Source: Akkermansia muciniphila (GTDB lineage Bacteria; Verrucomicrobiota; Verrucomicrobiia; Verrucomicrobiales; V1-33). Taken from it: a stretch of 64,000 bases of DNA. A program made the translations under genes and the position numbers. This document shows positions 24,115-35,390 of the stretch, piece by piece. The notes under the pieces were generated by a model. That model worked only from the letters and a program-made list of their open reading frames with translations. It was not told the DNA's origin and searched no databases. The stretch's first letter is position 1, and each line of letters opens with the position of its first letter. The stretch is from the NCBI GenBank assembly GCA_945861415.1, contig CAMAUV010000002.1:1-64000 (forward strand), given 5' to 3'.

Positions 24115-27100
24115 TCAGTTCGTAGTGATGCTCATGCGGACGTAGTGGCGGAGGGCATTGAGCCACTCTGCGGCGTCGCGGAAGACTAGCGTGGTAGTGC
24201 CGTCGGCATTTGGGGTGGCGCTGAGCAGCGGCAGCGGAGTCCAGCCGTTGAGGTCGCTGCCGGCTTCCGCGGTGAGGGTGACGCTGGCCAGGGCCTGACT
24301 ACTCACGGTCCATGTGGCATGCAGGTGATCCAGCGTGTCCGGGCCGGGAGCGATGCTGTAGGTGGGCAGTGCAGTGAGCCTGTCGGACGGGGCTTTGTCG
24401 GGCATGGTGCCGAGGGCGAACTCGATCAGATTAGTCATGCCATCGCTGTCGGGATCTGCATCCGGGCCGGTGATGGCGGGGTTCGCGATTTCCGTGGCAT
24501 TGAAATGCCCATCCAGCCAGATGTGGAAGGTGACCGGGGTGACCAATGCGCCAGGGGAGCCGGCCCATTGGAGGGTGGCGGTCCAAGTGGCAGGCAGGTT
24601 GTGGTCGGGATTGGTGGCCGGACTGACCAATCGCAAGGCGGAACCGCGGCCATCGGCAGCTTCCGGCCAGCCGAGGGACTCTGCATTGTTGTAGGCGAAA
24701 TCCTTGATCGTATCCGCATCCGTGCCGATATCCGCCCCGTCGGGGCCGGTGATCCAGAGGCGTTCGCCGCTGTTGCTGAGGTTCCCGACGTACTCGCCGG
24801 CGATCCTAGCATTGAGGGATATTCCGTAGCGGGTGCGGAAGGCGCTTTTTTTTTTCACCAGCAGCACGGTGTCGCCGGGGGCGAGTGCCCGGATGGGCGA
24901 CTGTACGGTGGCGATACCGAAAGCGAACACGCATCCGGCAGAGATATTCACGTTGTCGAGGCTCACGGGATCGGGGCCGATAGCCATGAGTTCGAGGTAT
25001 TCGAATTCATCCTTGTCCGTGTAGCCGGCCAGCGTCTCCGCAGGGGTGGTGTCCGGCGGGTTATACATGATCTGATTCACGACCAGAGTCGATGCCGTGG
25101 CAGGCACTGTGGCGAACTGGAAGGTGGCTTCTGTGAGGGCGCTCCATTCGTTGGTGGCGCCGTTTTTCACGCGGGCTTTCACGGTGGTGTAGAGCGAGCC
25201 GGGAAGAGAGAAACTCACGCTGTCCGGCGAGGCCGTGGTGATAGCGGTGGTTGCGGTGGCCACTGCGGTGCCGCCCCACTCACGAGGATCGCTTCCGTCG
25301 GTGGTGTAGTAAATGGTGCTGCCAGCCGGGACGGTGGCGTTGGTGGAAATGCTCAGGGAAAAACCCGTAGGCACCACGCCGCCGTGCCGGCTGAAGGTGA
25401 CGGGCTCTGTGGCGGGCCAGAGGCCATGTAAACGGAAGCGGATGTCCGCATTCACATTTGTCGCCGAGCCGCCTACGGGTGTGTAAATGTAGCTGACGGG
25501 ATTGAACAGGAACTGACGCCGCGGGGGCAGGGAGGCAGTACGGTTCACACCGCTCACGGCCCATGTCCAATTGGCGGTGGAGGTCCAATTGGTCCAGAAG
25601 GCGGGCGGATCGCCGAGTGTCCCACCATACGTGTACTGTAGCAGCGGGCGGAACGGATCGGCCAGTTCCTTCATGCGCTTCTGGATCGGGCAGTTCGTAT
25701 TGACGCGGTCATCAAGGATGTTGCCGTTAAAGAACCAGTGGTTGATGCGGTCGGCATAGCGCAGTTTGAACTCCGCGGATGTGTAAAGCCCCCGCCAGAG
25801 ACGGCTCTGCTGGCTGCTCCCGGTGCCAGTGGTGGCTTTGAAGTCGATGGCGATCGTGTCATACCACGGCGGCTTGGTATTTCCGTGGCCAAAAGATCCC
25901 TCGGCATCCCAGATGTGCAGCCGCCATTTGCCTTCGGGAGTTTTCTCGCGGGAGGCGATCCAGTTGTTGTTCGGCCAGTCCCACGTGCTCATGTAGGTGT
26001 TGAGCAGCCAGTAGTCGATCATTTCATCCATCTCGATGCGACTTTGAATGGCGTCCCAGTTTGCCTGATTCGAAAGATTTTGTTCCGCAGCCACTATGGT
26101 GGCGTCCCAATGGCCCGCGTCGCCCTCCTCCACGATGTCGTTGATGCGGATGTCCCAGAGGTTTTCGGAATCAAAGTGGCGCTGGAAGTAGGGCTCGCGG
26201 TAGCGTTCCACCGTGTTGTAGAACCCTTTGTAAATCCCGTTCACATAAAGCGTGTTGAGGCGCCCCTGCACGGCTTTGTGCCCCATGTCGTTGAAGAGGC
26301 GGCGCACCAGTTCGTCTTTGATGAATGGGTTGCTGATGTCATTCTTGCCGGCCCGGGGGCGGAGTTCGTCGAACGATTTCACCGGATAGTCCTGACCGAG
26401 GAACGGATAATTGAGTTCGCCCTGCTCGTAGTCTTCGCGGAAGAAAAGATTGAAACTGGCCTTTTCCGTGTCATCAGCCGGCCATGGTGAGGCGGCGGTT
26501 TGGGTGAGCCTGAGCCGCGGACGGCTGTAAGGGCTGCTAGCAATGCGGATGCCTGCAGCCTCGGAAAAGCCCGCCGTGCCGTCCACGGGGAACCATTCCA
26601 AGTGCAGTGCCCGCTCAAACGGCCGTCCGTGCATGGTTCCCATGCTGTAGTCGGTGATGGCGTTGGGCTGGGTCCACACTCCGCTGCCGCTATACACGCC
26701 TCCATTGATGACCATGACCCCATGGTCCTTGTAAAAAGTCTTTGCCCCATCTCCCGTAAAGATCAGCGCTGGCACTGTCTGGAGCGAGGTGTTTTGATTG
26801 ATGAGCAGGGTAATGGTTTTAGTGTTCGAAGGCACGGCTCCAGCCATGAAGGCACGGGCACGGATGACGCGGCCCGTTTTGTCATTGGCCCCGGCGGCAA
26901 CATTCAGCGAACCACCAGCGGGATAGCGCGCCGAAGTCTCCGTGGGCTCGCTGCCGTCGGTGGTATAGCGGATCTCCGCACCGGGGGTGAGCGTCTGCAT
27001 GTGGAGGTCCTGGGCGCCGGTGTAAAAGCCTCCAGCCTTTGGCGTGAGAGAGGCTGCATCAGAGAAGAAATCCGGCGTTTTGCATCGCTTCTCACTACTA

Positions 27101-29778
27101 ATGGGGCCGTTGGCAGCGTTGGGAGTGGTGACATTGAAGTAGCCTAGCATTCCATCCACCGACGAGCGTCCGTAGCTGTGGAAGGCGTCCACGCGGGGAT
27201 AGTCGATGCTGTCCACCAGCGTGCCGTTCTGTGCGAGATAGACGGTCTCGCCGCCTTCGCTGAGTTTGAAGTTTGTGTGCAGATACAGCTGCCCGGTGAG
27301 GGCGCTGTTCTCATCGCAGAGCAGGAGCAGGTGGCCATTGGCCGGGATCATCGTGCCATTGGGGAAAGCCCACTTGATGAGGTTGCCGCTTTCATCGCTG
27401 AGCGACCATCCGGTTAGGTCCACGGGGAAACCGCCCGCGTTACGCAGTTCGATCCAGTCGGCGAATCCCGGCAGATTGGGGAATGGCGGTGGAAGGATTG
27501 GTTCCGCCCGGTTGTTAGGCACTTTGGGAAGATTTGGCTCCCAGACACCGCCGCTGGGCTCCCCGGCTCCCACGAAATACTGCATGCTGCTGCCGAGGCC
27601 GAAAAACGGTGTGATGGGTGTCTGCCGGGCATAGGTGACGCGGAAATCCTCGAGCCAGAGGTCCTTTCCGGGAGCCGCGGCATATGAGGCGTCCACTAGT
27701 TCAAGGACCGGACGGAAGGACTGGCTGCCGGCATTGTTCAGCGCGGCGAGAAACTGCCTGCGGGAGGCCGCTGCGGGAGCGCTAAGGGGCGCACTGAAGT
27801 TTGTGAAACCTGCTGCATCCGCTGCCGCCACTTTTAGCATTTCTGTTGGCAGCAACACGCGGCCGGAGTAACGGATTTCATCCAGCTTGAGCGGCCATGC
27901 CGCGCTGGCGGGTGCGGGCATAGCAGTGCCGGTAAACTTCCCGAAATCAATATTCCCTGCCGGATGCGTCCATGAATTATTCAGCACAAACGAGCTGCCC
28001 GCCACATAGTCTGTGTAGATGGTGATGCGCTTGGTCGCGCCGTCGTATGTGATGGAGACGTGACGCCAGACGTTGGTAGCCGTGTCATTGTACTGATCAC
28101 CGTCGGTGTAAACATCCGCGGCGGCGCTGTAGCTGTTAAAGTTTCCATCGCCGGAGGGCGTGTCCACAAAGGTGTAGCCGCCAGCACCTACGCGATTGTT
28201 ATCCAGTGGGGCCGGCGCAATCCCCACGGTGTCCCAGCGAGTACGGATTTTGCCAAAATTCGTCCGCGCCACGCCGTGGTCGAAGTCAATCTGCCAAGCA
28301 TGGCGGTCGGACGCCGTGGCACTGTCCGCATTAGGACCATCCACCAAACGCCGTATGAAGCTCTCGTACGTCGTCGGTTCACCAGTGATTTTGACGAACA
28401 TCTCCACCGTGAAGCTCGTGGTATTATAAAGCGCATTGTTCGACGCAGAGAATCGGGCGTTGGCGAGCGTGGCATCGAAACTGAAAGTGTTGTTATACAA
28501 GCCACCGGTGATGGGATCGAGGACCCTCGCCCCGGCGGTATCCGTGGAATATTTCGCCGCATTCGTCGTCACGAGCGCTGCCTGTGCGGTAGCGTTGTTT
28601 ACCACGCTGGGCGCATTGGCGATGGTGGCTCCATTGTTGCCCGCAACGGGATTGCCGCTGACGATGTGGTCTTCAAACCGCCACCAACTGAGGACCTCTG
28701 CGGCCGGCTGCACTGTCGAGCCAGCAAGCGAGCCCATGGGCAGGGCATCGGCGGGGCTGCCGCCCACGGGTTCCAGCTTCACACTCGCGGAATAGCCAGC
28801 GGCAGCTTTGAATTTAAAGGCCAGCGTGGTCGCAGCGAGGTCCGCCTCGGTCACCGCCCCGGCGGCCCACTGTGCGGCCATGTTGATTGCAGGGCCGTAA
28901 ATCCTTGACGGCTGCGTTGGCCCGGTGCCGGTGGCGTTGACGCGCAGCACGCCACTGTTGCCTGTGCCGCCGGTGGTCTGGAGGAGCTGATCGATCGTCA
29001 AAGCACTCCACGCGGCATCGGAAAATGGATCGGCGGCACTTGTCAGCCAGCCTGCGGGCGGCGTGCCGGTGGTCGTGTTGGTGATGCTGCCCGCAGTGTT
29101 GGTGTGAGTGCGGCTGGAGCCGTTAGCGTTGTTGAAGTTCTCACTTAACTCCGTGGTGGTGAGGATGCCGTTGTTCAATTCCAGTCCGGCATCAATCCGA
29201 AGGTCGCCTTTGCCATCCACGGACGCATTGGCCACCTGTATGGCCAGCACATTATCCCCTTCCACGAGGAACTGGTTCGCGGCACCGAGATTTACATCCA
29301 GCGTATCTGTGGGAGGGGCCGGACGGTTAGAAAAAGCCGGCTGATCCGCATACACAATGCCCTTTGCGGCCCCCAGCCGGGCCCGGGAGATTTCCTTGCC
29401 GTTGAGGAAGGCGATGTAGCCGTCATTGTAGTCGATGCGCAGCCGCAGGTTTTCCTTGCTGGCCGCATTGACGGCGGAAACCGTGAAGACCTTCCGCGCA
29501 TAGAGCGAGGACGTCTTTCCGTCGAGTTGTGACTTCAGATTCGTGCCCAATCCGCTATCCCCGGCATTGAATCCCAGAGGTGCCGTCCCTGTGGGCCACG
29601 CAGAGGCATTGAATGCCGAATCGAACCAAGCAGGCCCAGTGCCCAGACGCGGCTGGCCGCTTGCATCCCAGCGCAGAGCCCGTTCGTTGGGCGCTGCATT
29701 GATTTCATTGATGGTGACCTGACCGTGCAGCTGAGCACAGACAAGGACGGCGATGATGGAAACGGGAAATTTCTTCAT
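24115..29778 (-). CDS. Giant secreted CotH-kinase / lamin-tail-domain protein with LamG-like and chitobiase-like modules
   Basis: 1900-aa ORF (24115..29817; likely ATG 29778 before the signal peptide MKKFPVSIIAVLVCAQLHG): SWWRFEDHI LamG-like region, two LTD segments (FADWIELRNAGGFPVDLTGWSLSDESG), two YTTDGS(E/D)P motifs, CotH core (ELVRRLFNDMGH...WRLHIWDAEGSFG). Confidence 0.85.
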   Translation of the reverse strand: MKKFPVSIIAVLVCAQLHGQVTINEINAAPNERALRWDASGQPRLGTGPAWFDSAFNASAWPTGTAPLGFNAGDSGLGTNLKSQLDGKTSSLYARKVFTVSAVNAASKENLRLRIDYNDGYIAFLNGKEISRARLGAAKGIVYADQPAFSNRPAPPTDTLDVNLGAANQFLVEGDNVLAIQVANASVDGKGDLRIDAGLELNNGILTTTELSENFNNANGSSRTHTNTAGSITNTTTGTPPAGWLTSAADPFSDAAWSALTIDQLLQTTGGTGNSGVLRVNATGTGPTQPSRIYGPAINMAAQWAAGAVTEADLAATTLAFKFKAAAGYSASVKLEPVGGSPADALPMGSLAGSTVQPAAEVLSWWRFEDHIVSGNPVAGNNGATIANAPSVVNNATAQAALVTTNAAKYSTDTAGARVLDPITGGLYNNTFSFDATLANARFSASNNALYNTTSFTVEMFVKITGEPTTYESFIRRLVDGPNADSATASDRHAWQIDFDHGVARTNFGKIRTRWDTVGIAPAPLDNNRVGAGGYTFVDTPSGDGNFNSYSAAADVYTDGDQYNDTATNVWRHVSITYDGATKRITIYTDYVAGSSFVLNNSWTHPAGNIDFGKFTGTAMPAPASAAWPLKLDEIRYSGRVLLPTEMLKVAAADAAGFTNFSAPLSAPAAASRRQFLAALNNAGSQSFRPVLELVDASYAAAPGKDLWLEDFRVTYARQTPITPFFGLGSSMQYFVGAGEPSGGVWEPNLPKVPNNRAEPILPPPFPNLPGFADWIELRNAGGFPVDLTGWSLSDESGNLIKWAFPNGTMIPANGHLLLLCDENSALTGQLYLHTNFKLSEGGETVYLAQNGTLVDSIDYPRVDAFHSYGRSSVDGMLGYFNVTTPNAANGPISSEKRCKTPDFFSDAASLTPKAGGFYTGAQDLHMQTLTPGAEIRYTTDGSEPTETSARYPAGGSLNVAAGANDKTGRVIRARAFMAGAVPSNTKTITLLINQNTSLQTVPALIFTGDGAKTFYKDHGVMVINGGVYSGSGVWTQPNAITDYSMGTMHGRPFERALHLEWFPVDGTAGFSEAAGIRIASSPYSRPRLRLTQTAASPWPADDTEKASFNLFFREDYEQGELNYPFLGQDYPVKSFDELRPRAGKNDISNPFIKDELVRRLFNDMGHKAVQGRLNTLYVNGIYKGFYNTVERYREPYFQRHFDSENLWDIRINDIVEEGDAGHWDATIVAAEQNLSNQANWDAIQSRIEMDEMIDYWLLNTYMSTWDWPNNNWIASREKTPEGKWRLHIWDAEGSFGHGNTKPPWYDTIAIDFKATTGTGSSQQSRLWRGLYTSAEFKLRYADRINHWFFNGNILDDRVNTNCPIQKRMKELADPFRPLLQYTYGGTLGDPPAFWTNWTSTANWTWAVSGVNRTASLPPRRQFLFNPVSYIYTPVGGSATNVNADIRFRLHGLWPATEPVTFSRHGGVVPTGFSLSISTNATVPAGSTIYYTTDGSDPREWGGTAVATATTAITTASPDSVSFSLPGSLYTTVKARVKNGATNEWSALTEATFQFATVPATASTLVVNQIMYNPPDTTPAETLAGYTDKDEFEYLELMAIGPDPVSLDNVNISAGCVFAFGIATVQSPIRALAPGDTVLLVKKKSAFRTRYGISLNARIAGEYVGNLSNSGERLWITGPDGADIGTDADTIKDFAYNNAESLGWPEAADGRGSALRLVSPATNPDHNLPATWTATLQWAGSPGALVTPVTFHIWLDGHFNATEIANPAITGPDADPDSDGMTNLIEFALGTMPDKAPSDRLTALPTYSIAPGPDTLDHLHATWTVSSQALASVTLTAEAGSDLNGWTPLPLLSATPNADGTTTLVFRDAAEWLNALRHYVRMSITTN

Positions 29779-29860
29779 GGAAATGCGAGGGATGGGCGAT
29801 TGTGGCAAATTTGTCACGATCGCGGCAATGCCTTTTCTCGCGGAGTGGTCTGATCGATTC

Positions 29861-32302
29861 CTATCGACGGCGGCGGCGCAGCCCCACCATTGCCATACCG
29901 GCCAGAGCCAGCAGGCTGCTGGAGGCCTCGGGAATGACGGTCAGCACCAGATCATTGCCGGTGCCGCCCTGATAGTCGGCCAGGAAGCCGTAGTTGTTAC
30001 CGAGGAACGACAGGATGACGGTGGAATCGTCCGCAAGATTGCTGAAGGTGCCGAAAATGGTGTCTGAGCCGGCGTTGTCGATGAGCGTGAAGGAGGTATC
30101 GGGTGCCGGAGCGTAGCCCAAAGCGAGGGTGATCACACTGGAGCCTGCGATGGTCACGGTGGCGGGATCACCGATAGCGAGCTGGTCGTAACCAGTGCCC
30201 GGTGCAGAGCCATTCATCTCCACGGCAAAAACTGATGCGGCGTTCAAGGACAACGGCTTGTTGCTGGTGATGAGGCCCGGCGAATTGCCGGGGGCGAGGG
30301 TGCCATTGATCTGCACTGTAGAGGCGGCCAGCCCAGCATTGATGGTGCCCGATCCACCGAGGGTGGCTCCGGCAGCTACGGTGACGGTGTCACCAGCGAT
30401 GCTGCCGTTTACCAGCAGGGTGCCTCCGAGGACTTCCGTGGTGCCGCCATAGGTGTTCACTCCGCTGAGGATCACGCTACCGGTGGTGGCGGAGCCCACG
30501 AGTTGGTTGGCATTTGCATCGGGGACGCCATTTACGTCCGCATCAAGGTTCGGATGATTGCGGAATTGGTTGATGGTGATGCGGGTGAGGTTCGCGGCAT
30601 TGGAGGAGGCAGCGGGTGTGGAACTGCCCGCCACGGGAGCCGTGGCCCCGGAGATGATGCCTGTGAACTCCGCAGTGCCTCCACCGGCAGCGCTGAGGGC
30701 GATGTTGTTGATGACGCTGATGACGTTCGTCCCATCGCTGCCTGCCGCGGTGCCGGTAACCGGCGCCAAGACCCCCTGTCCTGCAATGTTGCCGCTGAAG
30801 GTGATCTGTCCGCTGGTGTTCAGTCCACCGAATTCATAACCGTTGAAGAGGCTAACGGTTCCTCTGTCGCCGTAGAGCGACTGGAAAACGCCGGGGAGCA
30901 CTCCGTTGATGTTTGCTACGGTTCCAAGATTCGTGCCGGTGCCTTGGCCGGGGGCCAAGGCGCGGGCGTAACTGGTGCCTGGTGCTTCCAGAAAGAGCCG
31001 GCGGTTGGCTCCGGTTTGGTTTTGGGGGAACATGTTCCCGCCGTTGCCATCTGCCAGGCTGAACGTCTGCGTATCCACCGGGCTGTTCGTGCCCACCGCG
31101 CCGACGCTGCCTTCAACGATGATGGTTCCATTGGTGATACTCTGCGTGTTCGTGTAGGTGCGTGCAACATCGGAGAACCGGTAGCTGCCATGAGAGCGAC
31201 CATCCACCGTGAGCGCACCGGGGGCATTCGGTCCAAAGTGGATGTTGCCAGCGACGCCGGTGCCTCCCGCGGCAATGCTGATGCCACCAGTGAAGCGAAT
31301 GGTCTGCCCCTGTCTTGCGGCAAAGAACTCCACGCCCCGGGCTGCGGTGGTTTCCAGCTCCGGCAGGATGACATTTCCGCTCACGGTCAGAGTATTTGTG
31401 TTCAACCCTCCGGATCCATTCGAGGAGATCGAGGAGATCGTGGAGATCCCGAAGCGGACCCGTCCAGTCGGTGCCGCATTGCCACCGGAGCCTGACATGT
31501 CCAGATCGCGGGCAAATGTGTAATTGCTTGTGTCATCGGATGCCTGCAGCCGCAGTTCCGCCGTGAGGTTATTGGCAAAACTTGGCGTGCCGGTCCCCAC
31601 CGCCGAGGCGGGGCCGCCAAGTCTGACCGCTGTGGCGGAATTCCCGAGTCCGCCATCTGTGCTGATCAGCACATCTCTCCGGAAGATCAGGGTGCTGTTT
31701 CCGACACTGACACCGCCGGTGAAGCTGTTTCCTGAATTCTGGAGATTGATAAGTTGAGTGGAATTGGCCGTCGCCCCGGGGATGGAAGGATTGGTGAGGG
31801 TGATTCCTCAAGTGCCGCTGATCACGCCGCCAAGAGCAATTCTGTTCGCCGAAGCCAGATAGGGCACGCGGATTATGAGATCGTCATTCAGGGTGATTCC
31901 CGCGCTGATGGTTTCACTCATACCGGGAGCGACTGTGACGGTCCGGCCCAGCACAGCGCTTCCAGTGCTGACGTCAAATGTAATCGATCCGACCGTGCCA
32001 GCCGCGATGGTCTGGGCGAAAAATGCCGTCGTGGAATCGCCCAGATTCAGCGTGCCCACTGTGATCGGCTCGTTCAGTTCGATCGTCTGCGCTCCTGCGG
32101 TGTTGATGTTCACATTCGCCACATCATCGATGCCATTGGGAAACTGCGTCGTGGTGGCCCAGTTGGCGGGGTCGTTCCAGCCATACGGGCCCGCAGCCGT
32201 GGGCACCCACGTATCGCTGGCGGCAAAGACGGACGGTGCCACAGCCAAAGTGGAAATCAGACTGACAAAGGAGAGGCGGAGGTGTTTGGTCATGGATGTC
32301 AT
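29861..32302 (-). pseudogene. PEP-CTERM protein with autotransporter-type beta-strand repeats, interrupted by one in-frame TGA
   Basis: N-part 31808..32302 with signal peptide (MTKHLRLSFVSLISTLAVAPSVFA) ends ...GGVISGT*; same frame continues GITLTNPSIPGATANSTQLINLQNSGNSFTGGV... to VIPEASSSLLALAGMAMVGLRRRRR*. TGA is at 31808-31810. Confidence 0.85.
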
Positions 32303-32452
32303 GTGCTGCGAAATGGGCGAATGATGACGGTTTGAGAGTGGATAGGAAAAGCCTGTTTAAGGCCACCAGTTGCACGGCTGGGATGCCGGAAGATAAAAAT
32401 GATCCGGGATTATCAGAGGCAGCATGCCAAATCCGCCCCGGTTTGGCCATCG

Positions 32453-32468
32453 CTCGAAAGAGCGAATC
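32453..32468. promoter_or_regulatory. Candidate operator, copy 1: CTCGAAAGAGCGAATC, about 150 bp upstream of the PEP-CTERM gene start
   Basis: Exact 16-bp match to 33218-33233; weaker flanking similarity (CCCCGG...TTTG(G)CCA). Confidence 0.5.
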
Positions 32469-32516
32469 TTACGCTGCCCCCTGCCAGCCGCCCAAGGTTA
32501 AAATGGTCGAATTGAC

Positions 32517-33185
32517 TCAAATTTTCAGAATGCCCAGCTTGTAACCCGCCGCCACGGCTCCCGCACGGTCCTCTACGCAGAGTTTCGAGAGGATGCCCTT
32601 CACATGCGTTTTTACCGTGTGTTCGCTGACAAATAAGTCCGATGCGATCTGCTTGTTGCTTTGCCCTCGGCCCATGCCGGCCAGCACTTCCAGTTCCCGT
32701 GGACTTAGCTGCTGTCGCTCTGTCAGACGCGCCGTCACTTCGCGGCCAAATTGTCTCGCGCCGCCGGCAGCCGCCCTCACGGATGCGGCCAACTGCCCGG
32801 GACTAGTCGTTTTGGAAAGATAGCCCATGGCACCCGCCGCAACGGCAGTGGCTACCTCTTCATCCAGCTCCTCGGTGCTAAGCATCAGAACGCAGGCGCC
32901 GGGATGCTCGGACCGGATCTGCCGCAGCGCCTCCAGTCCGTCCACCTCCGGCATCCGCACATCTAGCAGGGCCACATCCGGCAGGAATTTCCGGTATAAA
33001 GAGACCGCCTGTGCCCCGTTTTCAGCTTCTGCCACCACGGAAATGTCGCCTTCATTGCCCAACATGGAGGCCAAGCCCACGCGGACGACTACGTGGTCGT
33101 CAGCGATCAGCACCCGGATGGCTGTGGGTGACTCTTCGGTGATTTTTTTACTCAAGGGCATGGTGATGGCAAGTTCTCTGGTCAT
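32517..33185 (-). CDS. NarL/FixJ (LuxR-type HTH) response regulator
   Basis: Receiver (VLIADDHVVVRVGLASML, DVALLDVRMPEVDGLEAL) plus HTH (LSPRELEVLAGMGRGQSNKQIASDLFVSEHTVKTHV). Confidence 0.95.
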   Translation of the reverse strand: MTRELAITMPLSKKITEESPTAIRVLIADDHVVVRVGLASMLGNEGDISVVAEAENGAQAVSLYRKFLPDVALLDVRMPEVDGLEALRQIRSEHPGACVLMLSTEELDEEVATAVAAGAMGYLSKTTSPGQLAASVRAAAGGARQFGREVTARLTERQQLSPRELEVLAGMGRGQSNKQIASDLFVSEHTVKTHVKGILSKLCVEDRAGAVAAGYKLGILKI

Positions 33186-33217
33186 CCTTTCGCATCCCCG
33201 GCCTATTTGCCAAGTCC

Positions 33218-33233
33218 CTCGAAAGAGCGAATC
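33218..33233. promoter_or_regulatory. Candidate operator, copy 2: CTCGAAAGAGCGAATC, in the divergent regulator/kinase intergenic region
   Basis: Exact 16-bp match to 32453-32468. Confidence 0.5.
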
Positions 33234-33389
33234 GCTTTTTTCCGGAACGCCTCTAGACTGCCTGCCGTGTTTCGTATCCTTCTGATCCTGCTGTTCACTA
33301 CCGTGGGGGCGCTCTGCGCATAGGAACCCCTGCGTTCCTGTGCCGGCATCCGTGCTCTACCGCGGCAGCAGGCAAACAAACGGCTGCCG

Positions 33390-35390
33390 GTGGCCGTCAC
33401 CGGAGTGGTCACGTTCGCCCGCATTCACGACCTCGTGCTGCATGACGGGCAGGAGGGAGTGTATGTTTCCCTGAGCAAAATGTCCGCCGTCAAACGGCGG
33501 GAGGCCTTTTCGGAAACCGGCAAACCGCAGGTGGGCGCGAAACTCGAAGTGCAGGGCCACACCGCTCCCGGCGGCTATGCTCCTGTGATTACGGCCCTGC
33601 AAATTACGCGAATGGGCGATGCGCCGTTGCCTCCACCGCAGCCGGTCTCCCTGAGTGCCGTGACCCGCGGGCAGTTTGACTGTCAAAGCGTGGAACTTCG
33701 CGGCGTGGCCCGACGGGTGCACCGGAGCGATCCTGAAGAAGGCGAATTACGAATGGAAATCGCCACTCCCGACGGAAATTTCAGTGCGATGGTGATGTCG
33801 TCGCTCGGCTTCAATCCACAGGAACTCATAGACGCCAGCCTGCTCCTTCGCGGCGTCGCGTTCACTTTCTTTACCACCCGCGGAGAAGCTAATGGGGTGC
33901 TGCTCCGGGTGATCGATGCCCGTAACATTGAGATCACCCGTCCCGCCGCGCCGGACCCGTTCAACGTGCCGGAAGTGGATCCCCTCGCCCTGCGTCCCTT
34001 CCGAAAGACCGGGCCCGTGCTGCACCGCCAGAAGTTGACGGGAACGGTGACCATGGTGCGTCCCGGTGACTTTTTCTATGTGCAAATGGCTGACCGTGCC
34101 GTGCGGGTAAACACGCGGAGCACCGAACCGCTCACGGCCGGAGATATAGTCGACGTGAGTGGATTTGTCGATTACTCCCGGGACTTTGGAGCCATGACGG
34201 AGGCACTCTACCGTTCTGCCGGCCAGCAAACGCCCGTCCTTCCCGCCGCGGTGACCCGGCAACTCGTCCTGGGCACCACGCACCGGGGCATCGATATTCT
34301 GCGAGTCGAAGACTACGATGGCCGGTTGGTGACTATCCGCGGGAAGTTTGTGGATATCGAAACGAACACTGGTGCCGACAGCCGCGTCTTTCTGGACTGC
34401 GATGGCGGCATCGTCGTGGCGTCACTGCCGGAGCGGGATGCAGCCCGTGCGGCCGAACAACTCCTCCGCTCAAATGAAGTTGAACTCACTGGCATCTGTA
34501 GTGTCGAACTCAGCACCAATTGGCCCGCCCTTACTCTGCCGCGGCCCAAAGGCTTCACCCTGCTGCTTCAGGACCGCAGTTTCATCCGCGTGCTGGAGCA
34601 GAAGTCATGGTGGACACCGGTGCGCCTCTGGACCGCGCTGGGCATCGCACTGGTCGCACTCGGCATCACCCTTGCCCTCGTGGCCATCCTGCGCCGACGC
34701 ATCGCCGAACGCAGCGCCCTGCTGGCCGATGAAATGCGGGCCCGCCGCGACGGCGAAGTGGAATTCGCCGCCACCCTGCGGGAACGAGAGCGCCTCTCCG
34801 CAGACCTCCACGATACCCTTGAACAAACCCTCACCGGAGTGGCCCTGCAGATTCACGCCACGAGCAGTGCCACCACTCCGGAACGGGCCGCCCGCAACCT
34901 GGAACTGGCCACGGCCATGCTGAGCCGCAGCCGCGAGGAACTGCGCCGCAGCGTCTGGAATCTCCGCTCCCACGACCTCGAAGGCCGCCTCCTCCGCGAA
35001 GCCCTCGACCATATCTGCCGCAGCATCCTCGACGGCACCGGCATCACCCTCAAGGTCGGCGGCACCGGCACTGAAGAAGCCCTCAGCGACTTCACCGCCG
35101 GCAACCTCCTCCTCATGACCAAGGAGGCACTGTCAAATGCCATCAAACATGCCGCACCCTCCACCATCACTATCGAAGTGAACTATACCCGTGACGACGT
35201 CACCATCAAAGTCACCGACAACGGCTGCGGCTTCGATCCCGCTGCTGCCCCGGGCCCCCACGACGGCCACTTCGGCCTCACCGGCCTCCGCGAACGAGCC
35301 CTCCGTATCGACGCCCAACTCGATATCCACAGCACCCACGGCTCCGGCACCACCGTCATCATCTTCGTCCCCAACTGCATCCCGAGGTGA
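33390..35390 (+). CDS. NarL-system-type sensor histidine kinase (HisKA_3-like) with OB-fold-like N-terminal sensor
   Basis: RLSADLHDTLEQTLTGVALQ, GNLLLMTKEALSNAIKHA, VTDNGCGFD, HFGLTGLRERA; TM helix LWTALGIALVALGITLALVAILRRR. A signal-peptide-like segment from 33267 (GTG) is in the same frame but cut off by TAG 33321-33323. Confidence 0.85.
   Translation: MAVTGVVTFARIHDLVLHDGQEGVYVSLSKMSAVKRREAFSETGKPQVGAKLEVQGHTAPGGYAPVITALQITRMGDAPLPPPQPVSLSAVTRGQFDCQSVELRGVARRVHRSDPEEGELRMEIATPDGNFSAMVMSSLGFNPQELIDASLLLRGVAFTFFTTRGEANGVLLRVIDARNIEITRPAAPDPFNVPEVDPLALRPFRKTGPVLHRQKLTGTVTMVRPGDFFYVQMADRAVRVNTRSTEPLTAGDIVDVSGFVDYSRDFGAMTEALYRSAGQQTPVLPAAVTRQLVLGTTHRGIDILRVEDYDGRLVTIRGKFVDIETNTGADSRVFLDCDGGIVVASLPERDAARAAEQLLRSNEVELTGICSVELSTNWPALTLPRPKGFTLLLQDRSFIRVLEQKSWWTPVRLWTALGIALVALGITLALVAILRRRIAERSALLADEMRARRDGEVEFAATLRERERLSADLHDTLEQTLTGVALQIHATSSATTPERAARNLELATAMLSRSREELRRSVWNLRSHDLEGRLLREALDHICRSILDGTGITLKVGGTGTEEALSDFTAGNLLLMTKEALSNAIKHAAPSTITIEVNYTRDDVTIKVTDNGCGFDPAAAPGPHDGHFGLTGLRERALRIDAQLDIHSTHGSGTTVIIFVPNCIPR

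Follow-up and report, generated by a model that had tools for sequence, protein, structure and literature searches.

Two exact copies of one 16-bp sequence, CTCGAAAGAGCGAATC, lie on the + strand at 32453-32468 and 33218-33233 of the window (the whole stretch of DNA that was analysed, 64,000 nucleotides). A single regulator gene lies between them. What do these copies do, and which protein would read them? The original prediction took them for an autoregulated operator of a NarL-type regulator that controls a surface protein. The features concerned are given below.

24115-29817, - strand: gene of a secreted protein of 1900 aa, 43 bp downstream of the surface-protein gene and on the same strand.
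29861-32302, - strand: gene of a PEP-CTERM/beta-strand-repeat surface protein, the predicted target, with an in-frame TGA at 31808-31810.
32409-32414, - strand: GATAAT, a putative -10-like element, 41 nt downstream of the spacer of operator 1.
32450-32465, no strand assigned: candidate operator 1, TCGCTC-GAAA-GAGCGA, a perfect 6-4-6 inverted repeat between the regulator stop and the PEP-CTERM start.
32517-33185, - strand: NarL/FixJ-type response regulator of 222 aa (REC + GerE), assigned by profile matches and comparison with orthologues.
33215-33230, no strand assigned: candidate operator 2, TCCCTC-GAAA-GAGCGA, with arms matching at 5/6 positions (one mismatch), between the divergent regulator and kinase.
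33267-35390, + strand: HisKA_3 sensor kinase gene with start GTG at 33267, a signal peptide and an in-frame TAG at 33321-33323.

Both copies were confirmed where they had been reported, in the non-coding gaps that flank the regulator. One gap runs from about 32303 to 32516, between the end of the regulator gene and the start of the PEP-CTERM gene, and the other from 33186 to 33266, between the regulator start and the GTG of the kinase. The whole genome (4,657,427 bases) has no other exact copy, and allowing up to 2 mismatches adds 1 further place. The functional unit is better described as the 6-4-6 inverted repeat TCSCTC-GAAA-GAGCGA than as a 16-mer. The original prediction had extended copy 1 to the inverted repeat GCTC-GAAA-GAGC; this repeat is real, but its extent was drawn too short, as the arms match at 6/6 positions. 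It had also described a shared preceding CCCCGG...TTTG(G)CCA. Of these, CCCCGG is not kept in relatives, whereas the flank TTTGGCCA, or NTTGGC on the opposite strand, is kept in part.

As the window holds four exact repeat pairs of at least 16 nt, one of them tandem, a single 16-mer repeat somewhere in it is unremarkable. It is the placement of both copies in these two gaps that is unlikely, not the 16-bp repeat alone. Our estimate from the gap lengths is a chance of about 1e-5 that the facing gaps should each hold a copy, with 765 bp from one copy to the other. The genome-wide scan that had been proposed found the motif nearly absent outside the two gaps. The degenerate form TCSCTC-N4-GAGSGR occurs at three places in the genome, namely the two window copies and TCGCTC-AACT-GAGCGG on contig 11 (L272 3743; G000 contig 11, 7242-7257), which is the only one of the three within an ORF (412 aa) and probably a chance match. 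Another match, on G000 contig 5, was set aside as it lies at the contig end in unrelated surrounding sequence. A whole-genome scan of 22 genomes with CYCACGAAAGNGNGG gave little above control, and the motif is therefore rare and local.

The regulator contains REC and GerE as its only domains found (PF00072, 92.5 bits; PF00196, 63.8 bits; both above cut-off). Its phosphorylatable Asp and switch residues (D29, D30, D75, T104, K125) are invariant in the orthologues, and comparison with these makes the ATG at 33161 a likelier start than the annotated one. The kinase matches PF07730 and PF02518 above cut-off in a reading frame that is broken by the TAG, and a signal peptide and one transmembrane helix can be read from its sequence. 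The PEP-CTERM signal of the surface protein is borderline, with PF07589 at 23.0 bits in the genome scan (cut-off 20.7) and 17.0 bits in the whole-protein scan, and PEA replaces PEP. The same genome encodes one exosortase (PF09721, 151 bits, contig 4). About 27 PEP-CTERM matches were counted in the genome, and only one of them has the repeat upstream. Judging from the spacing, the gene of the 1900-aa protein is possibly co-transcribed with the surface-protein gene.

Orthologous loci were the next source of evidence. No close orthologue of the regulator was found in the same genus (best 41%). Other families hold orthologues singly: one in a Prosthecobacter MAG (59%), one in each of two MAGs from Akkermansiaceae (55 and 53%), one in an Opitutaceae MAG (51%) and, at about 51%, one in each of two genus g16 members. 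Five class-level genomes also carry an orthologue, with 45-47% identity over the tblastn match. We selected 12 orthologous loci by regulator similarity (45-59% identical) from several families of Verrucomicrobiota. Searching the relatives strictly for the 16-mer gave nothing clean, so the repeat was read as two arms with a free spacer.

The arms of the window itself served as the pattern, and the regulator, kinase and post-regulator gaps of the 12 loci were scanned against 300 dinucleotide shuffles as the control. At a 4-bp spacer, the summed mismatches came to 22, compared with a mean of 38 and a minimum of 32 in the shuffles; the remaining spacers between 0 and 10 all gave 33-39. Up to 2 mismatches were found at 8 of the 12 loci (shuffle mean 1.5, maximum 6). 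Sites in 6 of the 12 had been known before the test, the count leaves out the L124 site because it falls outside the gaps scanned, and the close relationships within L229/L230 and L034/L126 make the counts overstate independence somewhat. Among 75 paralogous loci, the arm consensus was also most frequent at spacer 4, both in intergenic sequence and overall. Most paralogues at 40-44% identity had no site by this consensus.

The same repeat is thus found in the equivalent gaps of orthologues from other genera and families, which is what the original prediction had proposed to look for. In the closest orthologue (G074, 59%), TCGCTC-TTTT-GGGGGA lies between the regulator gene and that of a giant beta-repeat protein of 3072 aa (L123 10066). 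In G373 (55%; L124 11868), TCGCTC-GAAT-GAGGGG precedes a pectate-lyase-like gene. Two sites lie between the regulator and a secreted gene in G380 (53%; L125 8045 and ~8124), the second of which is the perfect CCCCTC-GAAT-GAGGGG. The Opitutaceae MAG repeats the two-site layout of the window, with one site in the regulator-kinase gap and the other separating the regulator from the next secreted gene. G030 and G139 carry TTACCC-GAAA-GAGCAA, and in L034 the repeat is 57 bp upstream of the regulator, with L126 alike. No site was found in G219 (regulator 47%).

In the class-level orthologues, TCCCTC-N4-GAGGGG is present upstream of the kinase in 5/5 genomes. Further sites stand ahead of other, mostly secreted, genes, and the genes near them include those of GH5, CBM-bearing, TonB-receptor and beta-repeat proteins. 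From their positions, the additional sites would form small regulons rather than mark single targets. Several are on the same contig, and sites of the form TCCCTC-N4-GAGGGR precede other secreted genes by 60-130 bp (L276 1220 and 4438, L281 2887, L277 3351, L278 4395). In G532, two palindromic sites (L230 15621 and 15654) stand close to where a TonB-receptor gene starts, with 33 bp, or about three turns of the helix, from one to the other. This pairing suggests that binding there may be cooperative.

The arms also vary with the recognition helix of the adjoining regulator. Helices of the SEHTVK type pair with GAGSGA or GRGCGA arms, SE(E/D)TVKRHV helices with GGGGGA or GGGTGA (GGGKGA) arms, and GEDTVKQHV helices with GTGRGGG arms. 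Clades with other recognition helices thus adjoin other arms, with the 4-bp spacing unchanged. This co-variation is a correlation along the phylogeny, as would be expected of a regulator-operator pair, and not proof of one.

A scan with the GAAA spacer fixed missed the closest orthologues and revealed a family of genus g11, CCCYCAC-GAAA-GTGRGGG. Members of this related family were seen at L039 12211, L053 6572, L056 11729, L057 8135 and 9813, L058 11573, L060 4547 and 8236, L061 8741 and L064 13207. They are mostly from genus g11 (L057 is from G015, genus g7) and lie about 55 bp upstream of either the kinase gene or adjacent genes with secretion or TAT signals; a conserved -35/-10 follows them. 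Ahead of the secreted targets in genus g11, the site is followed by CTGAAA-N17-TTGATA and then by a start codon within about 60 bp. As CTGAAA-N17-TTGATA comes after the site, the g11 sites are upstream of the promoter.

At operator 1 of the window, the spacing to GATAAT nearly equals that to TTGATA after the operators of the relatives. We count the promoter here as putative because a strict sigma-70 scan found no strong promoter at operator 1. The distance from operator 1 to the annotated PEP-CTERM start is 155 bp, and most sites in relatives are nearer (55-130 bp). Operator 2 lies very close to the annotated start of the regulator. An intrinsic terminator was ruled out for both copies, as neither has a T-run after it.

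Taken on sequence evidence, the two copies are very probably (roughly 0.85) operators for a dimer of the NarL-type regulator encoded between them, which would control itself and the surface-protein gene. The REC and GerE identity of the regulator and the repeat in the equivalent gaps of its orthologues support what had been proposed. In the predicted circuit, the signal-peptide-bearing kinase (33267) would sense something outside the cytoplasm and phosphorylate the regulator, the dimer of which would bind the 6-bp arms 4 bp apart. Through operator 2, the regulator may act on its own promoter, on that of the divergent kinase, or on both. From operator 1, about 55 bp ahead of the transcription start, it would switch on the PEP-CTERM surface-protein gene. 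We infer the binding, the phosphorylation, activation rather than repression, and the start sites.

A structured RNA leader had been named as an alternative, in which the repeat acts as a GAAA-tetraloop hairpin in the transcripts of the kinase and/or the surface protein. GCTC-GAAA-GAGC could form a stable GNRA hairpin, and copy 2 is in sense orientation just upstream of the kinase start. Copy 1, however, is antisense to the PEP-CTERM gene, and the g11 site, being upstream of the -35/-10 elements, would go untranscribed. The spacer, GAAA in the window, varies in the orthologues (GAAT, AAAT, TTTT, GTTC, TTAA, TTTG) while the arms persist, and an Rfam search gave no match. With variable spacer, mixed orientation and no Rfam match, a leader is very improbable.

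The repeat could also be the operator of another DNA-binding protein and not of the adjoining regulator, and the genome does hold other LuxR-type regulators (19 matches). But the site accompanies this regulator across families, its arms change with the recognition helix, and the rest of the genome nearly lacks it; another binding protein is therefore improbable. The other alternative raised at the outset was a copied promoter; more broadly, the copies would be a recently copied promoter segment or a chance repeat without function. They are identical over 16 bp, and a window of 64 kb can hold such repeats by chance, as the four pairs show. Yet the flanks are uncopied, copy 1 is perfectly palindromic, and in the orthologues the repeat is conserved with a spacer-specific signal while the flanks differ, which leaves hardly any weight for copying or chance.

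Regulator-bound operators thus remain the preferred reading, and they resemble those of NarL/FixJ regulators in being inverted repeats for a REC-GerE dimer (binding being predicted here) upstream of a promoter. The sites of E. coli NarL are 7-2-7, heptamers with a 2-bp gap (PMC7419079). Here, in contrast, the repeat is 6-4-6 (TCSCTC/GAGSGA), only spacing 4 is enriched, and the sites appear to be local to the cassette. Closest to the regulator by sequence in PDB and NCBIfam are the VraR, MctR and MadR types. VraR is its closest solved structure, with NarL lower in the PDB list; NarL is its top NCBIfam match, below cut-off. Against the MctR and MadR models it scores 136-138 bits versus an equivalog cut-off of 300, and there is no sign of the same signal or regulon.

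For PEP-CTERM genes, a regulatory site of the PrsK/PrsR-sigma-54 system precedes most of the proteobacterial members; the authors described these motifs as confined to Proteobacteria and expected further regulators and motifs to be discovered (Haft et al. 2006, PMC1569441). The likeness to PrsK/PrsR is that a two-component system goes together with a conserved DNA site ahead of PEP-CTERM genes. PrsR, however, is NtrC-like and sigma-54-dependent, whereas the regulator here is NarL-type, the promoter is putatively sigma-70-like, and the site accompanies just one of the roughly 27 PEP-CTERM matches. We found no Verrucomicrobia operator of this type in the open-access literature searched. NarL-type regulators with local operators are a well-known type of system, but the literature searched did not yield this site, its regulator or the arm-by-clade family. 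In Verrucomicrobiota, where each genome has dozens of such regulators and many PEP-CTERM or giant repeat proteins without known pairing, the locus offers a specific site together with its regulator, and a rule of helix versus arm that can be tested.

At about even odds, we further propose that Verrucomicrobiota hold a large paralogous family of kinase/NarL-type cassettes, each with a private 4-bp-spaced operator code determined by its recognition helix and wired to neighbouring secreted, surface or polysaccharide-degrading genes, of which the window cassette would be a decaying member. If true, this family would amount to one sensor per surface protein.

The two in-frame stops, the TGA in the PEP-CTERM gene and the TAG directly after the signal peptide of the kinase, are absent from the original prediction. 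They may mean that the circuit is decaying or incomplete in this genome, or may be an assembly error (one assembly). Unlike these two genes, the regulator has an intact frame. Beside the closest orthologous regulator, that of G074, an eroded remnant is left of the kinase (L123 8443-9249), in the same divergent arrangement that the window has, and in G373 a truncated second regulator fragment (L124 11895-12218) adjoins the operator; because of these two loci, such cassettes seem prone to decay.
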